Assembly: GCA_024742875.1 (NCBI GenBank)
Contig: JANSXP010000020.1
Span: 1-64,000, forward strand
Direction of reading: 5' to 3'
DNA from: Planctomycetaceae bacterium
GTDB taxonomy: Bacteria > Planctomycetota > Planctomycetia > Planctomycetales > Planctomycetaceae
DNA length: 64,000 nucleotides
Part shown: positions 21,570 through 62,113 of the stretch, one piece after another
Numbering within the stretch: the first letter of the stretch is position 1
Layout of the letters: each line of letters opens with the position of its first letter
Program-made: the position numbers and the translations under genes
The notes under the pieces: model-generated
The model's input: only the letters and a program-made list of their open reading frames with translations
The model's database searches: none
Told to the model about the DNA's origin: nothing

Positions 21570-21758
21570 GTGATGATTCTCCTGGCGTGAATTCGCCGGA
21601 CAAGGTAAACAGGTGAGGCTATAATGGTGGGCAGACAGAGCCGCGTGCCACGCTCAGGCGTTATCCCGACGGGACGGTCGCGGTTTGTCTGTAGCTCTTT
21701 CCATTCTTACCGGATTCCCGGGCCCGGCAAGTCGCCGAGTTTGAATTCAGTCAAAACA

Positions 21759-22325
21759 ATGAGCTCTCGCTGGGCGGAACACCAAAGTTCAATGGCTCGT
21801 CGGTTCTTTCTGGCGACCATCCTTCAGGCTGTTGTCTGTCTGCTGCTGGCACTGGGCCTGGGCTTCGTCTGCGGAGCCCCGCCGCAGACCGATCGCATTC
21901 GCCTGCCGGCCGCCTTCCAGTTTGGCACCGCCTTTCTGGCCGTTGGCAGCTACTTTCTGCATGTCAGCCGCAAACATGTGCAGCTGGAGCGCCAGCCCGA
22001 GTTTCGCCGAGCGTTAATGCTGGCGCTGATTTTTGCCATCCTGTTTGTGGGTGTGCAGTCGTTCGGCCTGTGGGGCTTTATGAAGAGCACGAGGGATTAT
22101 CAAAACCCGCAGCTGAACACACACGGATTTGTATTCATGTTCACAGCCCTGCACGCGATGCACTTTCTGGTGGCTCAGTCCGTCCTGCTGTGGGTCACCC
22201 TGGCCGCCTTTTACGACCGGTATGATCATGAGTATTACTTCGGTGTGACGTTTGCCACGTGGTTCTGGCACGCTCTGGGCATCGCCTGGCTGGCGATTCT
22301 GTGGGTCTTTTCGGTGGCCTCCTAG
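21759..22325 (+). CDS. Heme-copper oxidase subunit III-like membrane protein
   Basis: From ATG 21759 the 188-residue protein has five hydrophobic segments. The last, FATWFWHALGIAWLAILWVF, matches the subunit III signature with its conserved His. HGFVFMFTALHAMHFLVAQ matches the preceding helix pair. Subunit III stabilises the catalytic subunit I of cytochrome oxidases. Subunits I and II are not in the window, so this is a stand-alone paralogue or part of a split cluster. The frame is open back to 21624 but the extra part is not membrane-like. Confidence 0.8.
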   Translation: MSSRWAEHQSSMARRFFLATILQAVVCLLLALGLGFVCGAPPQTDRIRLPAAFQFGTAFLAVGSYFLHVSRKHVQLERQPEFRRALMLALIFAILFVGVQSFGLWGFMKSTRDYQNPQLNTHGFVFMFTALHAMHFLVAQSVLLWVTLAAFYDRYDHEYYFGVTFATWFWHALGIAWLAILWVFSVAS

Positions 22326-24700: not shown

Positions 24701-25327
24701 CTACAGGTTCTCGATTTCTTCGGTGTCATGACACAGACGACAGGCCGCAAAATTGTCGTGTCCGCGGTGCTGCGCAAGGAACTGCCGGCGTGCCGCAGGC
24801 AGCCCTGTGTGGCAGGTCACACAGGCCAGACCTGGATGATTGTTTGCACCTTCGGCCACTGCTGCCGCTGGCCCAGGCACACCGGCGGCACACATCAGCA
24901 CGACATCCGGCGCACTGATCTGCTGCAGCCAGTCACTGTCCCGCAGTGACGCGGGAATCACGCTGGCGCCAAAATCGGCCAGCGAATCACGGTCGGTTCG
25001 CCGGGGCGCACTCCCGGGTGACGGTCCGGCCGACCAGGCGGCCACAGCAGACGGCTCGGACAAACCACGACCGAGCATCATCCCCAGCACCAGACTGGCC
25101 ACAGCGACCATCACCACAGCAGGCCAGGCGATTGGCGCACGACCGGAGGTTGACGCACGACCGGAGGTTGACGCACGACCGGAGGTTCGCGCACGACCAG
25201 CGGCAGCAGCGACAGCCCCATCGTCCGGTCCACCCCCCAGGCATTCTCCAACGCGCGTATCCAGCGCGTCTGAGGGACGTTGCACGGACATTTGCTCCAG
25301 CAGTCGTTCGATTCGCGATTGTGTCAC
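24701..25327 (-). CDS. Anti-sigma-like membrane protein with two c-type heme motifs
   Basis: The 208-residue protein overlaps the stop of the sigma factor by four bases (ATGA), so it is translationally coupled. A short cytoplasmic N terminus (1-45, SRIERLLEQMSVQRPSDALDTRV) is followed by a Gly/Arg/Ser/Thr spacer, a single membrane helix (68-87) and an outer domain with CVTCH (169-173) and CRLCH (196-200). The layout fits a membrane anti-sigma factor whose outer part carries two covalently bound hemes. No zinc HxxxCxxC anti-sigma signature is present. A redox, oxygen or nitric-oxide sensor is inferred. It ends three bases past the esterase stop in convergent orientation. Confidence 0.75.
   Translation of the reverse strand: MTQSRIERLLEQMSVQRPSDALDTRVGECLGGGPDDGAVAAAAGRARTSGRASTSGRASTSGRAPIAWPAVVMVAVASLVLGMMLGRGLSEPSAVAAWSAGPSPGSAPRRTDRDSLADFGASVIPASLRDSDWLQQISAPDVVLMCAAGVPGPAAAVAEGANNHPGLACVTCHTGLPAARRQFLAQHRGHDNFAACRLCHDTEEIENL
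25132..25204. repeat. 18-bp tandem repeat in the anti-sigma spacer
   Basis: The 18-bp unit GACGCACGACCGGAGGTT occurs about three times with a degenerate fourth, encoding SGRAST-type units between the cytoplasmic part and the membrane helix of the anti-sigma-like protein. Its start GACGC(A/G)C resembles the 18-bp intergenic unit near 53131-53214. Confidence 0.85.
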
Positions 25328-25821
25328 AGCTGACCTCGCAGTTTCTCTTCAAGTTTCAACAAAGCTCGGCGGTATCGAGTGGCCACCGTCTTGGGAGACT
25401 CTTCCAGCACACGGCCGACCGCATCAAACGTCAGGCCGGCAAAAACTTTCAGCACCACCACTTCACGGTCCGCAGAATCCAGTTCGTCGACCGCCATCCG
25501 CAGAATCTGATCTCGCTCGCGTGTCAGCACATCGTCAGCCGGATTGTCAACTCGCTCAGGCGGCACATAGCCATTGAACAGGGACTCGGTACGTTCTGAC
25601 TGCACACGTCGGTAGCGGACTGCATCTCGCGATGCATTGCGAACGGCTGCAAACACATAGCTGACCAAATCGCCTGCCGGCCGCTTCTCCTGGCGACACA
25701 GGCGTTCGAATGCCACATGAATGGAGTCTTCGGCCAGCTGAGCGCAGCGGGTCACAGACAGCGCCATGGCAAACAGGCCCTGCCGATGAGACCGATAGGT
25801 TTCCTCCAGCTGCTGGCGCAA
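25324..25821 (-). CDS. ECF-type sigma factor
   Basis: The 165-residue product has region 2 (LFAMALSVTRCAQLAEDSIHVAFERLCRQ and VSYVFAAVRNASRDAVRYRR) and region 4 (LDSADREVVVLKVFAGLTFDAVGRVLEESPKTVATRYRRALLKLEEKL). The start appears to be TTG at 25821: TGA lies three codons upstream in the same frame, and no earlier ATG fits. Its stop overlaps the start of the anti-sigma-like gene by ATGA, so the two form an operon. It probably directs a regulon controlled by the heme-bearing partner; targets are unknown. Confidence 0.88.
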   Translation of the reverse strand: MRQQLEETYRSHRQGLFAMALSVTRCAQLAEDSIHVAFERLCRQEKRPAGDLVSYVFAAVRNASRDAVRYRRVQSERTESLFNGYVPPERVDNPADDVLTRERDQILRMAVDELDSADREVVVLKVFAGLTFDAVGRVLEESPKTVATRYRRALLKLEEKLRGQL

Positions 25822-26034
25822 TCCGACGACTCATTTCGTGTGACGTGGTACGAACAGTCTCAACACGCACGGCAGCCACAAAATCCTTCACCGAACCGGG
25901 ACAAAATCGCCGGATTGATCCAATTCGGCAGATTTCCCGGCAAATGGCGGGCTTTCAGACAGGGGACGGGGCACACAGACCACTGAACGGTCGGACCGAC
26001 GGGCCAGTTTCCAAAGTGCCCGGCCTGATCGGGC

Positions 26035-37627: not shown

Positions 37628-39457
37628 TTACTTTTGCAGCTCATTGGCCATTTGACGGTGGTAGTCCGACTTATCCGAATTCTCAAGCAGCTCATAGAGT
37701 GTTGCCAGAATGGAATGCGCGGAGGCGTTTCGGGGATTAATCTCAACGGCTCGCTCCAGCGATGCGATGGCATCTTCTGTCTGATCAAGGTTCTGGGCAA
37801 CCAGACCACGATAAAACCACGCTCGGGGATCCCTGCGAATCGCAGTCAGCTCCCGAAGCAGTTCATAGGATTCTTCGAATCGCTGCTGACGAAATCTCAG
37901 TTCAGAAACAACCTGCAGGGCCGTGGCCCGCCCTTCGGAAGGTGAGTCATCAAGATCAAGCGCAATCGTCCCCCACTTCTCGATCATCGGGTCGAACCTG
38001 GTGATTTCCGCGATATTGGCCAGTCCCGCGGCAACGTCGACATCACCCGCTCCTTTGTCCCAGGCTTCCTGCAGCAACTCCCGGGCTCCACGCAACAAGC
38101 GTTCGTCGCGCGACTGCGGCCTGGTCTGATAAATACTCAATGCGGCCAGCCCGCTGACCCGTGCCTGATCGGCCCGCGGCAGCGACGCAGGCTCGAGCAT
38201 AGACAAAATCTGCCCGCGGGCAGGTGCCGCCGCCGAGTCATCATCCGTCTCGTGAATGCCAATACGATGGTGGGTGAAAGCCACATGCGGCACTTCGGTC
38301 GGCGCCGATGGCATGTGACATTTGGTGCAATGATTTTCAGCCTTTTGTGTGCGGACAAGCGGTACTTCACCGCAGTCCTCATCCTGATGGCAGGTCAGGC
38401 AGATCGCACGGTACTGATCCAGCGGCGCAGTGTCGCTCTGGTCCTGGTGCGGGTGGTGGCAGGTCGTACACGTCAAGCTGTCTGTCTCTGTGAAACACGC
38501 ACTGCGGTGCATCTGTGCAACGTGCCCCACAATGGTCATCTGATCATCCGCTGCACCAAATCGAAAGTCCCGGCGGAAGGCCGATAGCGGCAGACCGGGA
38601 CGATAATCATCAAAGTCATGACCACGAACCATTACCTGCGCGTCCGCCTGAAGGTGGCACTGCTGACAGATCGCTTCCTGTAATTCGCGATCCAGATGCG
38701 CTGGGTTCACGATGGAATAGTCCACGTCGTCTTTTGATCCACCTGCCACGCTGGAGTGCTTTTGCACGTGAAGCTCTCCGGGGCCGTGACACCGCTCGCA
38801 GCTGATAAAGCTCTCATGAACCTGGACGTGGTAGTCATTATCGCCAATGGATTCGACCGGACCGGCATGACAGTAAAGGCAGCCAGCCGCCACGTTACGA
38901 CGAAAGGAAAACTGCGTTGGAAAGTCGTAACCCGGCGACATTCCCCATTGCTGTCGATCGGAGTACCACGTGAGTGGAGACTGAACCAGAAATCCATCCA
39001 TTTCCGCCAGATAGCTGCGGCCAAACCTTCCGGAGCCAACCGCCCAGCGAATCAGGATGTCACGCGGCGCAAGCTCCTTCTTTCCCACCAGCAGAGATTC
39101 GGTGTGCAGCAACTCACCGTCATCGCCAGTGCGGGAGCTGTAGCTGTAACCGGATAGCGGGTGTGGTACTTCCGCTGGTGAAGTGACCTGCCCGCGGGCT
39201 TCTGCCATGGAACGACTGTGGCGTGTCTTTGAAAAATGAGCGTGCACATCGGCATGACACTCCTGGCACGACTCACTGCCCACGTAGCCCACACCAGCTC
39301 GGGTGTTCAAAAATTCGGATTCGGGAACGACCGGTGCCGGGCTGGCCGCGTACATATCCGGCTCAGCAGACCTCTCTTCTGCATTGGACTGCGAAGCGGG
39401 TTTCTCTGTCGAACAGCCTGACAGCATCACAACGACCAGACACAGTAGGAATCTCAC
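37628..39457 (-). CDS. Seven-heme cytochrome c lipoprotein with TPR tail
   Basis: The 609-residue protein has a lipobox LSGC (Cys15). Seven CxxCH heme motifs are visible: CQECH (64-68), CLYCH (193-197), CERCH (220-224), CQQCH (264-268), CTTCH (330-334), CLTCH (353-357) and CTKCH (377-381). The last four are arranged as in cytochrome c554/doubled-CXXCH proteins. Residues about 470-605 form TPR-like repeats (RFEESYELLRELTAIRRDPRAWFYRGLVAQNL). The motif count is read directly; distal His ligands are not assigned. Start and upstream stop overlap (ATGA). A periplasmic or outer-membrane electron-transfer or heme-binding role is inferred. Confidence 0.9.
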   Translation of the reverse strand: MRFLLCLVVVMLSGCSTEKPASQSNAEERSAEPDMYAASPAPVVPESEFLNTRAGVGYVGSESCQECHADVHAHFSKTRHSRSMAEARGQVTSPAEVPHPLSGYSYSSRTGDDGELLHTESLLVGKKELAPRDILIRWAVGSGRFGRSYLAEMDGFLVQSPLTWYSDRQQWGMSPGYDFPTQFSFRRNVAAGCLYCHAGPVESIGDNDYHVQVHESFISCERCHGPGELHVQKHSSVAGGSKDDVDYSIVNPAHLDRELQEAICQQCHLQADAQVMVRGHDFDDYRPGLPLSAFRRDFRFGAADDQMTIVGHVAQMHRSACFTETDSLTCTTCHHPHQDQSDTAPLDQYRAICLTCHQDEDCGEVPLVRTQKAENHCTKCHMPSAPTEVPHVAFTHHRIGIHETDDDSAAAPARGQILSMLEPASLPRADQARVSGLAALSIYQTRPQSRDERLLRGARELLQEAWDKGAGDVDVAAGLANIAEITRFDPMIEKWGTIALDLDDSPSEGRATALQVVSELRFRQQRFEESYELLRELTAIRRDPRAWFYRGLVAQNLDQTEDAIASLERAVEINPRNASAHSILATLYELLENSDKSDYHRQMANELQK

Positions 39458-61302: not shown

Positions 61303-61498
61303 CGTGTGACTCCTCGTCCATTGAAAGCCGTGGCGGGCATCTCCATGGACGCAGAAATTCACAGCAGCCGCACGCGGTATTTGGCGAGAAAACGGCGTGG
61401 TCCTTGCACACGGCGGGTCGCCAGCCATCATTGGGACGCCGAACCGAAATCCTGAAAAAACCGCGTGCACCGGTCGTTTGATTTTTCGTCCTGCCGTT

Positions 61499-62113
61499 AT
61501 GGAAACCGCTGTGAACTTTCAACAGGCGCTGCAACAGGCAAGAAACAGTGGGCCGGAGGCTGTCGCTGGACTGCTGAGTCAGTTTCGTGAATTCCTGCGT
61601 TTGACGGCCGCGGCCGCCATTCCCGCCACGCATCGCGCGCGACTGGACGCCTCGGATGTCGTTCAGGAAACCATGCTCAAGGCCAGCAATCGCTTTGAGA
61701 CATTCGCCGGACAGACGGAGGCGGAGCTGGCGGGCTGGCTGCGAACGACGCTCAACAGAACGGTGATAGACGGCCTGCGACGCCTGCAGACAGCGCGGGC
61801 GGCTGACCCCCTGCGTGTCAGATCTGTGGAGGCGATGTTTGATCGCGGTTCACACATTTGCCAGAACCTGCTGGCCGCCAGTGGCACATCCCCCAGCATG
61901 CAGGCCAGTCATCAGGAAGACGCCCTGATTTTGGCGCGGGCGATGGCAACGCTGTCCGAAGACTATCGGCAGGTGCTGATGCTGCGAAGTATCGAGGAAC
62001 GTCCGTGGGCCGATGTGGGCACATTGATGAATCGCAGCGAAGGATCCGTGCGGATGCTCTGGACGCGGGCGCTCGTGCAGCTGAAACCCAAACTCGAAGC
62101 CCAAATGAAATAG
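61499..62113 (+). CDS. ECF-type sigma factor (kinase-linked)
   Basis: From ATG 61499 the product has 204 residues. Region 2 shows SDVVQETMLKASNRFETFAGQTEAELAGWLRTTLNRTVIDGLRR; region 4 shows LSEDYRQVLMLRSIEERPWADVGTLMNRSEGSVRMLWTRALVQLKP. It is of the planctomycete type encoded beside Ser/Thr kinases. The stop lies two bases before the kinase ATG, so the two are co-transcribed and probably coupled. The frame is open upstream to 61397 but that part is not family-like. Confidence 0.9.
   Translation: METAVNFQQALQQARNSGPEAVAGLLSQFREFLRLTAAAAIPATHRARLDASDVVQETMLKASNRFETFAGQTEAELAGWLRTTLNRTVIDGLRRLQTARAADPLRVRSVEAMFDRGSHICQNLLAASGTSPSMQASHQEDALILARAMATLSEDYRQVLMLRSIEERPWADVGTLMNRSEGSVRMLWTRALVQLKPKLEAQMK

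Follow-up and report, generated by a model that had tools for sequence, protein, structure and literature searches.

An ECF sigma factor gene of Planctomycetaceae and its membrane partner with c-type heme-attachment motifs: a possible reporter of cytochrome c maturation

The sigma gene and its membrane partner

We analyzed a 64,000-nucleotide stretch of DNA from a Planctomycetaceae bacterium, referred to below as the window, and compared it with related genomes, which carry G-numbers. The window's own genome (G000) measures 8.18 Mb and is 98% complete. On the minus strand of the window lies a two-gene unit, in which an ECF sigma factor gene is followed by the gene of a predicted membrane protein, here called the partner. 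The features of the locus are:

25324-25821, minus: ECF sigma factor gene, 165 aa from a TTG start (Pfam and NCBIfam matches)
24701-25327, minus: partner gene, 208 aa from a GTG start, for an anti-sigma-like membrane protein with two CxxCH motifs; the gene overlaps the sigma gene by GTGA
25235-25315, minus: two short predicted cytoplasmic helices, putative sigma-binding part, residues 5-31 (AF2 helices 5-12 and 20-31; block pLDDT 78-83)
25064-25126, minus: predicted transmembrane helix, residues 68-88 (AF2 helix; hydrophobicity peak of 2.2 over 19 residues)
24809-24823, minus: first heme-attachment motif, CVTCH, residues 169-173 (CxxCH at this site in 6/6 same-genus proteins)
24767-24769, minus: His187, candidate distal heme ligand, 9 residues before the second motif (His at -9 in 14/14 motif-bearing partners)
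24728-24742, minus: second heme-attachment motif, CRLCH, residues 196-200 (CxxCH at this site in 14/14 partners from three genera)
25863-25890, minus: promoter-like TGAA-N19-CGTGT, some 40 bp ahead of the sigma start codon, a candidate autoregulated promoter by its positional conservation

The sigma gene matched Sigma70_r2 (9.5e-7) and Sigma70_r4_2 (1.9e-9) in Pfam and TIGR02937 (3e-20) in NCBIfam, and its product has the make-up of an ECF sigma factor, with only sigma regions 2 and 4 in about 165-200 residues; in a PDB search, SigW, SigL and RpoE were the relatives of the sigma profile. The initial annotation had described the two genes as overlapping by ATGA. The four-base overlap is present, with the letters GTGA in the window because the partner starts with GTG, and ATGA stands at this junction in the five same-genus relatives. 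An esterase-like gene follows the pair on the opposite strand and is itself adjoined by a frame with a sub-threshold COX3 match (21624-22325, plus). Elsewhere the window holds a second ECF-type sigma gene (61397-62113, plus) and a TPR protein (37628-39457, minus) that is a multiheme cytochrome candidate, with a paired-CxxCH Pfam match over the cut-off and a cytochrome c7 match just under it.

The layout first read from the partner's sequence was borne out: a protein of 208 residues with one hydrophobic helix and, at the end of its outer part, CVTCH and CRLCH, whose starts lie 27 residues apart. The AF2 model of the whole protein was poor (mean pLDDT 59, pTM 0.23), with the tail at pLDDT 60 or below. 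Neither Pfam nor NCBIfam gave an anti-sigma domain match for the partner, and HxxxCxxC was absent from the first 90 residues of all 14 CxxCH partners. The protein thus falls outside the class I anti-sigma domains as judged by Pfam family and HxxxCxxC, and a zinc-finger anti-sigma factor was rejected because HxxxCxxC is lacking. The contrast drawn at the outset, that membrane anti-sigma factors usually carry a zinc finger, is weak, as about 44% of class I anti-sigma domains are reported to have no zinc motif (PMC7406223). A phage origin was also considered, and the partner had no PHROG match. An 18-bp tandem repeat of 3.7 copies (25132-25198) lies in the cytoplasmic linker of the window's partner and is absent from the other aligned proteins.

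Conservation of the heme motifs and distribution of the pair

Searching 98 genomes (own included) with the partner gave matches in seven: the window's genome, five others of its genus and G073, from another family, whose only match (E 6.6e-4) was put down to chance. We also discarded a further G007 match (L008) that is interrupted by stops. In each of the five same-genus relatives the sigma gene lies upstream of the partner. Both motifs are present too, and with their 27-residue spacing they are kept in 6/6 same-genus proteins despite only 26-37% identity to the window's protein. Some copies are damaged: G007 has a frame break in the partner, which was counted only as the piece after the break, and a deletion in the sigma gene, and G002 has an in-frame stop in the sigma gene. 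Two same-genus drafts, G001 and G005 (90 and 93% complete), were found without the partner and without a strong sigma match.

A profile of the six partners added eight further genomes of the family, for a total of 14/170. Seven of these eight partners, from two genera (g47 and g53), have one C-terminal motif, where the window's genus has two, and that of G045 has none. When the same 170 genomes were searched with a sigma profile, 14 of them scored E 1e-65 or better and the G007 copy with its deletion scored 1e-28, the next-best match after this clade being G029 at 1e-30; the search added G167, whose partner has the motif. The sigma clade is thus present in 15/170 genomes of the family and a CxxCH partner in 14 of these 15. 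The initial annotation had proposed that homologues be examined for the same ECF-adjacent layout and for persistence of the motifs, and on both counts the relatives agree: all 14 motif-bearing partners adjoin a sigma gene, and a C-terminal CxxCH persists in 14 of the 15 sigma-bearing genomes. In G163, a remnant tail keeps one motif with no sigma gene beside it. The damaged copies in G007 (L264), G002 (L237) and G163 (L265), which could reflect assembly error or decay, each lie near a ccsBA homologue.

As a control, we examined other sigma loci of the window's own genome. Of 85 sigma matches, 72 were over the family cut-off (the 13 below it were excluded) and 71 were examined; a downstream frame, defined as same-strand and of at least 100 residues, was present at 61 of the 71. 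CxxCH occurred in this frame at only two of the 61 loci, the window's partner being one and a 705-residue protein the other. The latter, at L205 (G000:C162:184700-188600), follows another sigma gene; it contains a hydrophobic stretch, has its single CxxCH at residue 355, and may resemble planctomycete DUF1549 proteins. No CxxCH partner stood directly downstream at the 15 next-best sigma loci of the profile search, at two of which (L122, L128) a partner was not identifiable. Because CxxCH is kept in 14/15 partners and is rare at other sigma loci of the same genome, we regard the motif as kept and specific; a chance motif was rejected on the conservation among relatives and this control.

Beyond the family, a search of 397 class and 372 phylum genomes with the sigma profile found weaker relatives. 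Eight phylum genomes gave E 1e-37 or better and, where a partner is visible, it has a similar N-terminal stretch and no CxxCH; the putative sigma-binding part of the window's partner (residues 5-31) likewise has an 'LLxxMPLxxPSxxLDxRV'-like counterpart in proteins paired with related sigma factors. A PDZ-type protein is encoded by the next gene in G649, G629, G516, G576, G742 and, less clearly, G757 (Pfam-confirmed in G516 and G742); in G495 another protein follows the partner, and the G547 locus is cut. Such operons recur in the phylum (L139, L140, L141, L142, L144, L145), with an ECF sigma factor, a short membrane partner without CxxCH and a secreted PDZ-type protein, and resemble a module for envelope signalling. 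Two further loci carry CxxCH in the gene after the partner. In G045 (L233 4745-5467) a PDZ protein after the pair has two C-terminal CxxCH and a weak MtrC/MtrF-type Pfam match, its PDZ part matching the MamE and MamP models far below cut-off; in G404 (L234 4377-5583) the partner has no CxxCH, and the secreted protein encoded after it has a single CxxCH and a secretin match below threshold. Partner-profile matches in eight class genomes (E 1e-5 to 1e-3) were dropped as unrelated, seven of the eight having been inspected. A scan of named genomes gave no match to the partner and at least 59 sigma loci, mostly distant, of which 12 were examined. The series from no motif, through a motif in the next gene, to one and then two motifs suggests that a heme tail has been acquired by a signalling protein, in an order that is presumed.

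The tail itself was compared with known heme proteins. Single-motif partners end in H-x8-CxxCH, 4 or 5 residues from the C terminus. A third cysteine, partner residue 146 (24890-24892, minus), lies 23 residues before the first CxxCH, is invariant in the six same-genus proteins and is a possible axial ligand. All six two-motif proteins gave Pfam matches to cytochrome c7, c3 and paired-CxxCH families that were sub-threshold (best 7.8e-5), the best scores falling short of the curated multiheme cytochrome cut-offs at 22.9 bits vs 24.8 for c7 and 20.1 vs 20.6 for paired CxxCH; the three single-motif partners scanned gave no Pfam cytochrome family match. The sCache_heme family (PF11845) was touched weakly by two of 13 partners (E 0.05 and 0.83; best 14.5 bits vs a cut-off of 24.1) and not by the window's partner, and Magnetochrome was set aside, no partner in alignment set A3 having matched it. 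Within a close g53 trio (G176, G177, G059), the last 34 residues have a dN of 0-0.012 and the outer linker before them a dN/dS of about 0.6-1.0, over short segments; dS of the tail is also low (0-0.049), and the constancy of the tail may therefore not be wholly due to protein-level selection. By its sequence alone, with CxxCH and a histidine at -9 in 14/14 partners and Cytochrom_C_asm encoded in the window's genome, the partner is likely to carry covalent heme.

Genomic link to ccsBA and a candidate promoter

In 12 of the 14 genomes with a CxxCH partner, about 4 kb or less separates the pair from ccsBA; the exceptions are the window's genome and G006. Four g47/g53 genomes were examined first. 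Downstream of the pair they have a lipoprotein gene and then a very long gene, incomplete in three of these regions, whose protein has about 1,450 residues. A homology map placed sigma, anti-sigma, lipoprotein and ccsBA genes on one strand in 6/6 g53 and 2/2 g47 genomes with the sigma gene, ccsBA running off the sequence end in some of these loci. ccsBA (ResB-CcsA) was identified by its ResB and Cytochrom_C_asm domains, which were present in all four copies that were tested, one from G059 and three from the window's genus. Four of six genomes of the window's genus have ccsBA within about 4 kb, with the opposite-strand esterase gene between. In the window's genome the lipoprotein and ccsBA genes are on another contig, which is why the link is not visible from the window alone, and in G006 they are also unlinked; in G045, whose partner has no CxxCH, ccsBA is about 0.42 Mb away. 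G005, G103 and G105 keep lipoprotein-ccsBA without the pair, and G163 with a remnant only, which argues that the pair is dispensable. The 24 loci from class and phylum genomes, the majority spanning just some 3.5 kb, gave no ccsBA match. From this neighborhood, we think it probable that the pair is functionally tied to cytochrome c biogenesis.

Twelve of the 15 genomes have the sequence TGAA-N19-[C/G]GTGT ahead of their sigma gene. In G002 the spacer is N20 instead, and the sigma genes of G053 and G165 gave no match. The window has a single match where 1.3 are expected by chance, so the case for a promoter rests on positional conservation. In G006, which has three genome-wide matches to the strict pattern, one lies before the sigma gene and one 217 bp before the lipoprotein-ccsBA operon, both of the GGTGT variant; the G of 'SGTGT' was admitted after the ccsBA site had been seen, and the sigma site with the same G was found only afterwards. 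The ccsBA site also sits within an opposite-strand open frame of 182 codons. When the 700 bp before the lipoprotein gene were scanned in 18 genomes, G006 and G000 alone gave a site. That of the window's genome is a weaker site 584 bp upstream of lipoprotein-ccsBA, where the strict pattern has no match, and it may be chance, given 19 weaker-pattern matches in 983 kb of strand (real sites included).

A wider regulon was not visible: across eight genomes of the window's genus the strict pattern had 31 matches (6 at sigma genes) vs 24 for the reversed pattern. Apart from the six sigma genes and the G006 ccsBA site, 16 of the other 23 sites lie inside long reading frames and 7 between them, and no recurring target was seen in the 30 of 31 strict sites inspected by eye. 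In 14 of 18 genomes, whether or not these have the sigma gene, a TANAAT box lies no more than 220 bp ahead of lipoprotein-ccsBA (at 373 bp in the window's genome); one of 14 sigma genes is preceded by the same box. These boxes indicate that ccsBA probably has an independent housekeeping promoter, to which the sigma factor could only add.

Interpretation and comparison with known systems

Taken together, these results are consistent with a two-gene ECF unit whose partner is, to judge by sequence, very likely an anti-sigma factor; whether its tail is a heme-attachment substrate that reports on cytochrome c maturation we put at about even. In the mechanism that we infer, the short N-terminal helices would hold the sigma factor, and the outer tail would offer sites for c-type heme attachment, two here and one in the sister genera, and would itself be a substrate of the cytochrome c synthase CcsBA. 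While heme attachment works, the holo-tail would keep the anti-sigma factor stable and the sigma factor silent; when heme or CcsBA capacity is short, the apo-tail would make the anti-sigma factor lose its hold, probably by regulated proteolysis, and the freed sigma factor would transcribe its own operon, which includes ccsBA in relatives. That the switch runs in this direction, with apo as the on state, is presumed as the economical feedback, and we put the mechanism so stated slightly below an even chance. Purified CcsBA has been reported to attach heme to short CXXCH peptides, requiring both thiols and the histidine and not helix 1 (PMC8112865), which makes a bare tail a plausible substrate; with ccsBA beside the pair, this specificity for CxxCH suggests that the tail may be read by CcsBA. 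More tentatively, the tail could act as a decoy cytochrome: the signal would be the joining of heme to the anti-sigma factor by CcsBA, so that maturation capacity is measured directly and fed back to the synthase gene.

The initial annotation had read the hemes as direct sensors of redox state, oxygen or nitric oxide, for which we found no support beyond the heme motif itself, the conserved neighborhood pointing to ccsBA and cytochrome c maturation. As fixed sensors, the hemes would free the sigma factor on ligand binding or reduction, and the ccsBA linkage would match cytochrome supply to respiration. Heme c Cache domains joined to signalling modules are described as NO sensors, a short cytochrome-derived heme fragment is described as having been recruited into such domains, and the Tll0287 heme has Cys/His ligands (PMC12889525); C146, invariant in the window's genus, could be such an axial ligand. 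However, the conserved histidine at -9 suggests a six-coordinate heme, the 4 or 5 residues after the motif in the sister genera leave little room for a pocket, and four single-motif members have no cysteine outside the motif, and we consider a fixed sensor unlikely.

A tail without heme is more improbable still. The CxxCH tails would then be metal (zinc) or disulfide sites, and the anti-sigma factor would sense metals or thiol oxidation: H-x8-C-x2-C-H does offer four possible metal ligands, and the three single-motif members scanned lack a cytochrome family match, but the pair is linked to a CxxCH-specific heme synthase, the two-motif members give cytochrome c7/c3-like matches and the window's genome encodes cytochrome c assembly proteins. 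We are similarly doubtful that the partner is no anti-sigma factor at all and acts instead as a small membrane cytochrome, or as a helper of CcsBA in heme or apocytochrome handling, that is co-transcribed with the sigma gene. Its position beside ccsBA and the missing Pfam and NCBIfam anti-sigma matches would suit such a role; against it, the partner gene overlaps the sigma gene, the G001 and G005 drafts lack both, and CxxCH-less partners of related sigma factors in the phylum share a similar N-terminal part at loci where ccsBA was not matched.

We are aware of no established mechanism by which bacteria detect that cytochrome c maturation falls short. Were the tail a synthase substrate, as in the reading we favor, it would offer a simple one and a ready-made reporter of CcsBA activity. 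In the literature searched we found no description of an anti-sigma factor with c-type heme motifs; the main ECF reclassification and two planctomycete ECF papers may mention one.

Among known systems, CnrY has a single membrane helix and, as far as we know, no heme motif; a PDB search gave no sequence match between it and the partner. The window's partner may resemble this class II protein, which has a very short two-helix sigma-binding part (PMC7406223), the class being defined by such a part of fewer than 50 residues before the membrane helix; in the AF2 model the partner's predicted helices fall at 5-12 and 20-31, followed by 68-88. As in RseA-DegS/RseP, the ECF sigma factor would be held by a co-encoded membrane protein, and in the wider planctomycete operons a PDZ protein follows the partner; unlike in that system, the partner has neither a class I anti-sigma domain match nor HxxxCxxC, its outer part is a CxxCH tail, and no PDZ gene lies beside the window's pair. 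With GSU0582 and GSU0935 (PMC3460858) and with sCache_heme (DUF3365/Tll0287; PMC12889525) it shares the plan of a signalling protein with predicted covalent heme c outside the cytoplasm, although those are Cache-fold domains and only 2/13 partners touch PF11845. The heme-uptake system HasI-HasS-HasR likewise has an ECF sigma factor and an anti-sigma factor that answer to heme; there, it is the receptor HasR, together with HasA, and not a heme-binding anti-sigma factor, that does the sensing (PMC11442138), whereas in the window's pair the anti-sigma factor would carry the heme itself.
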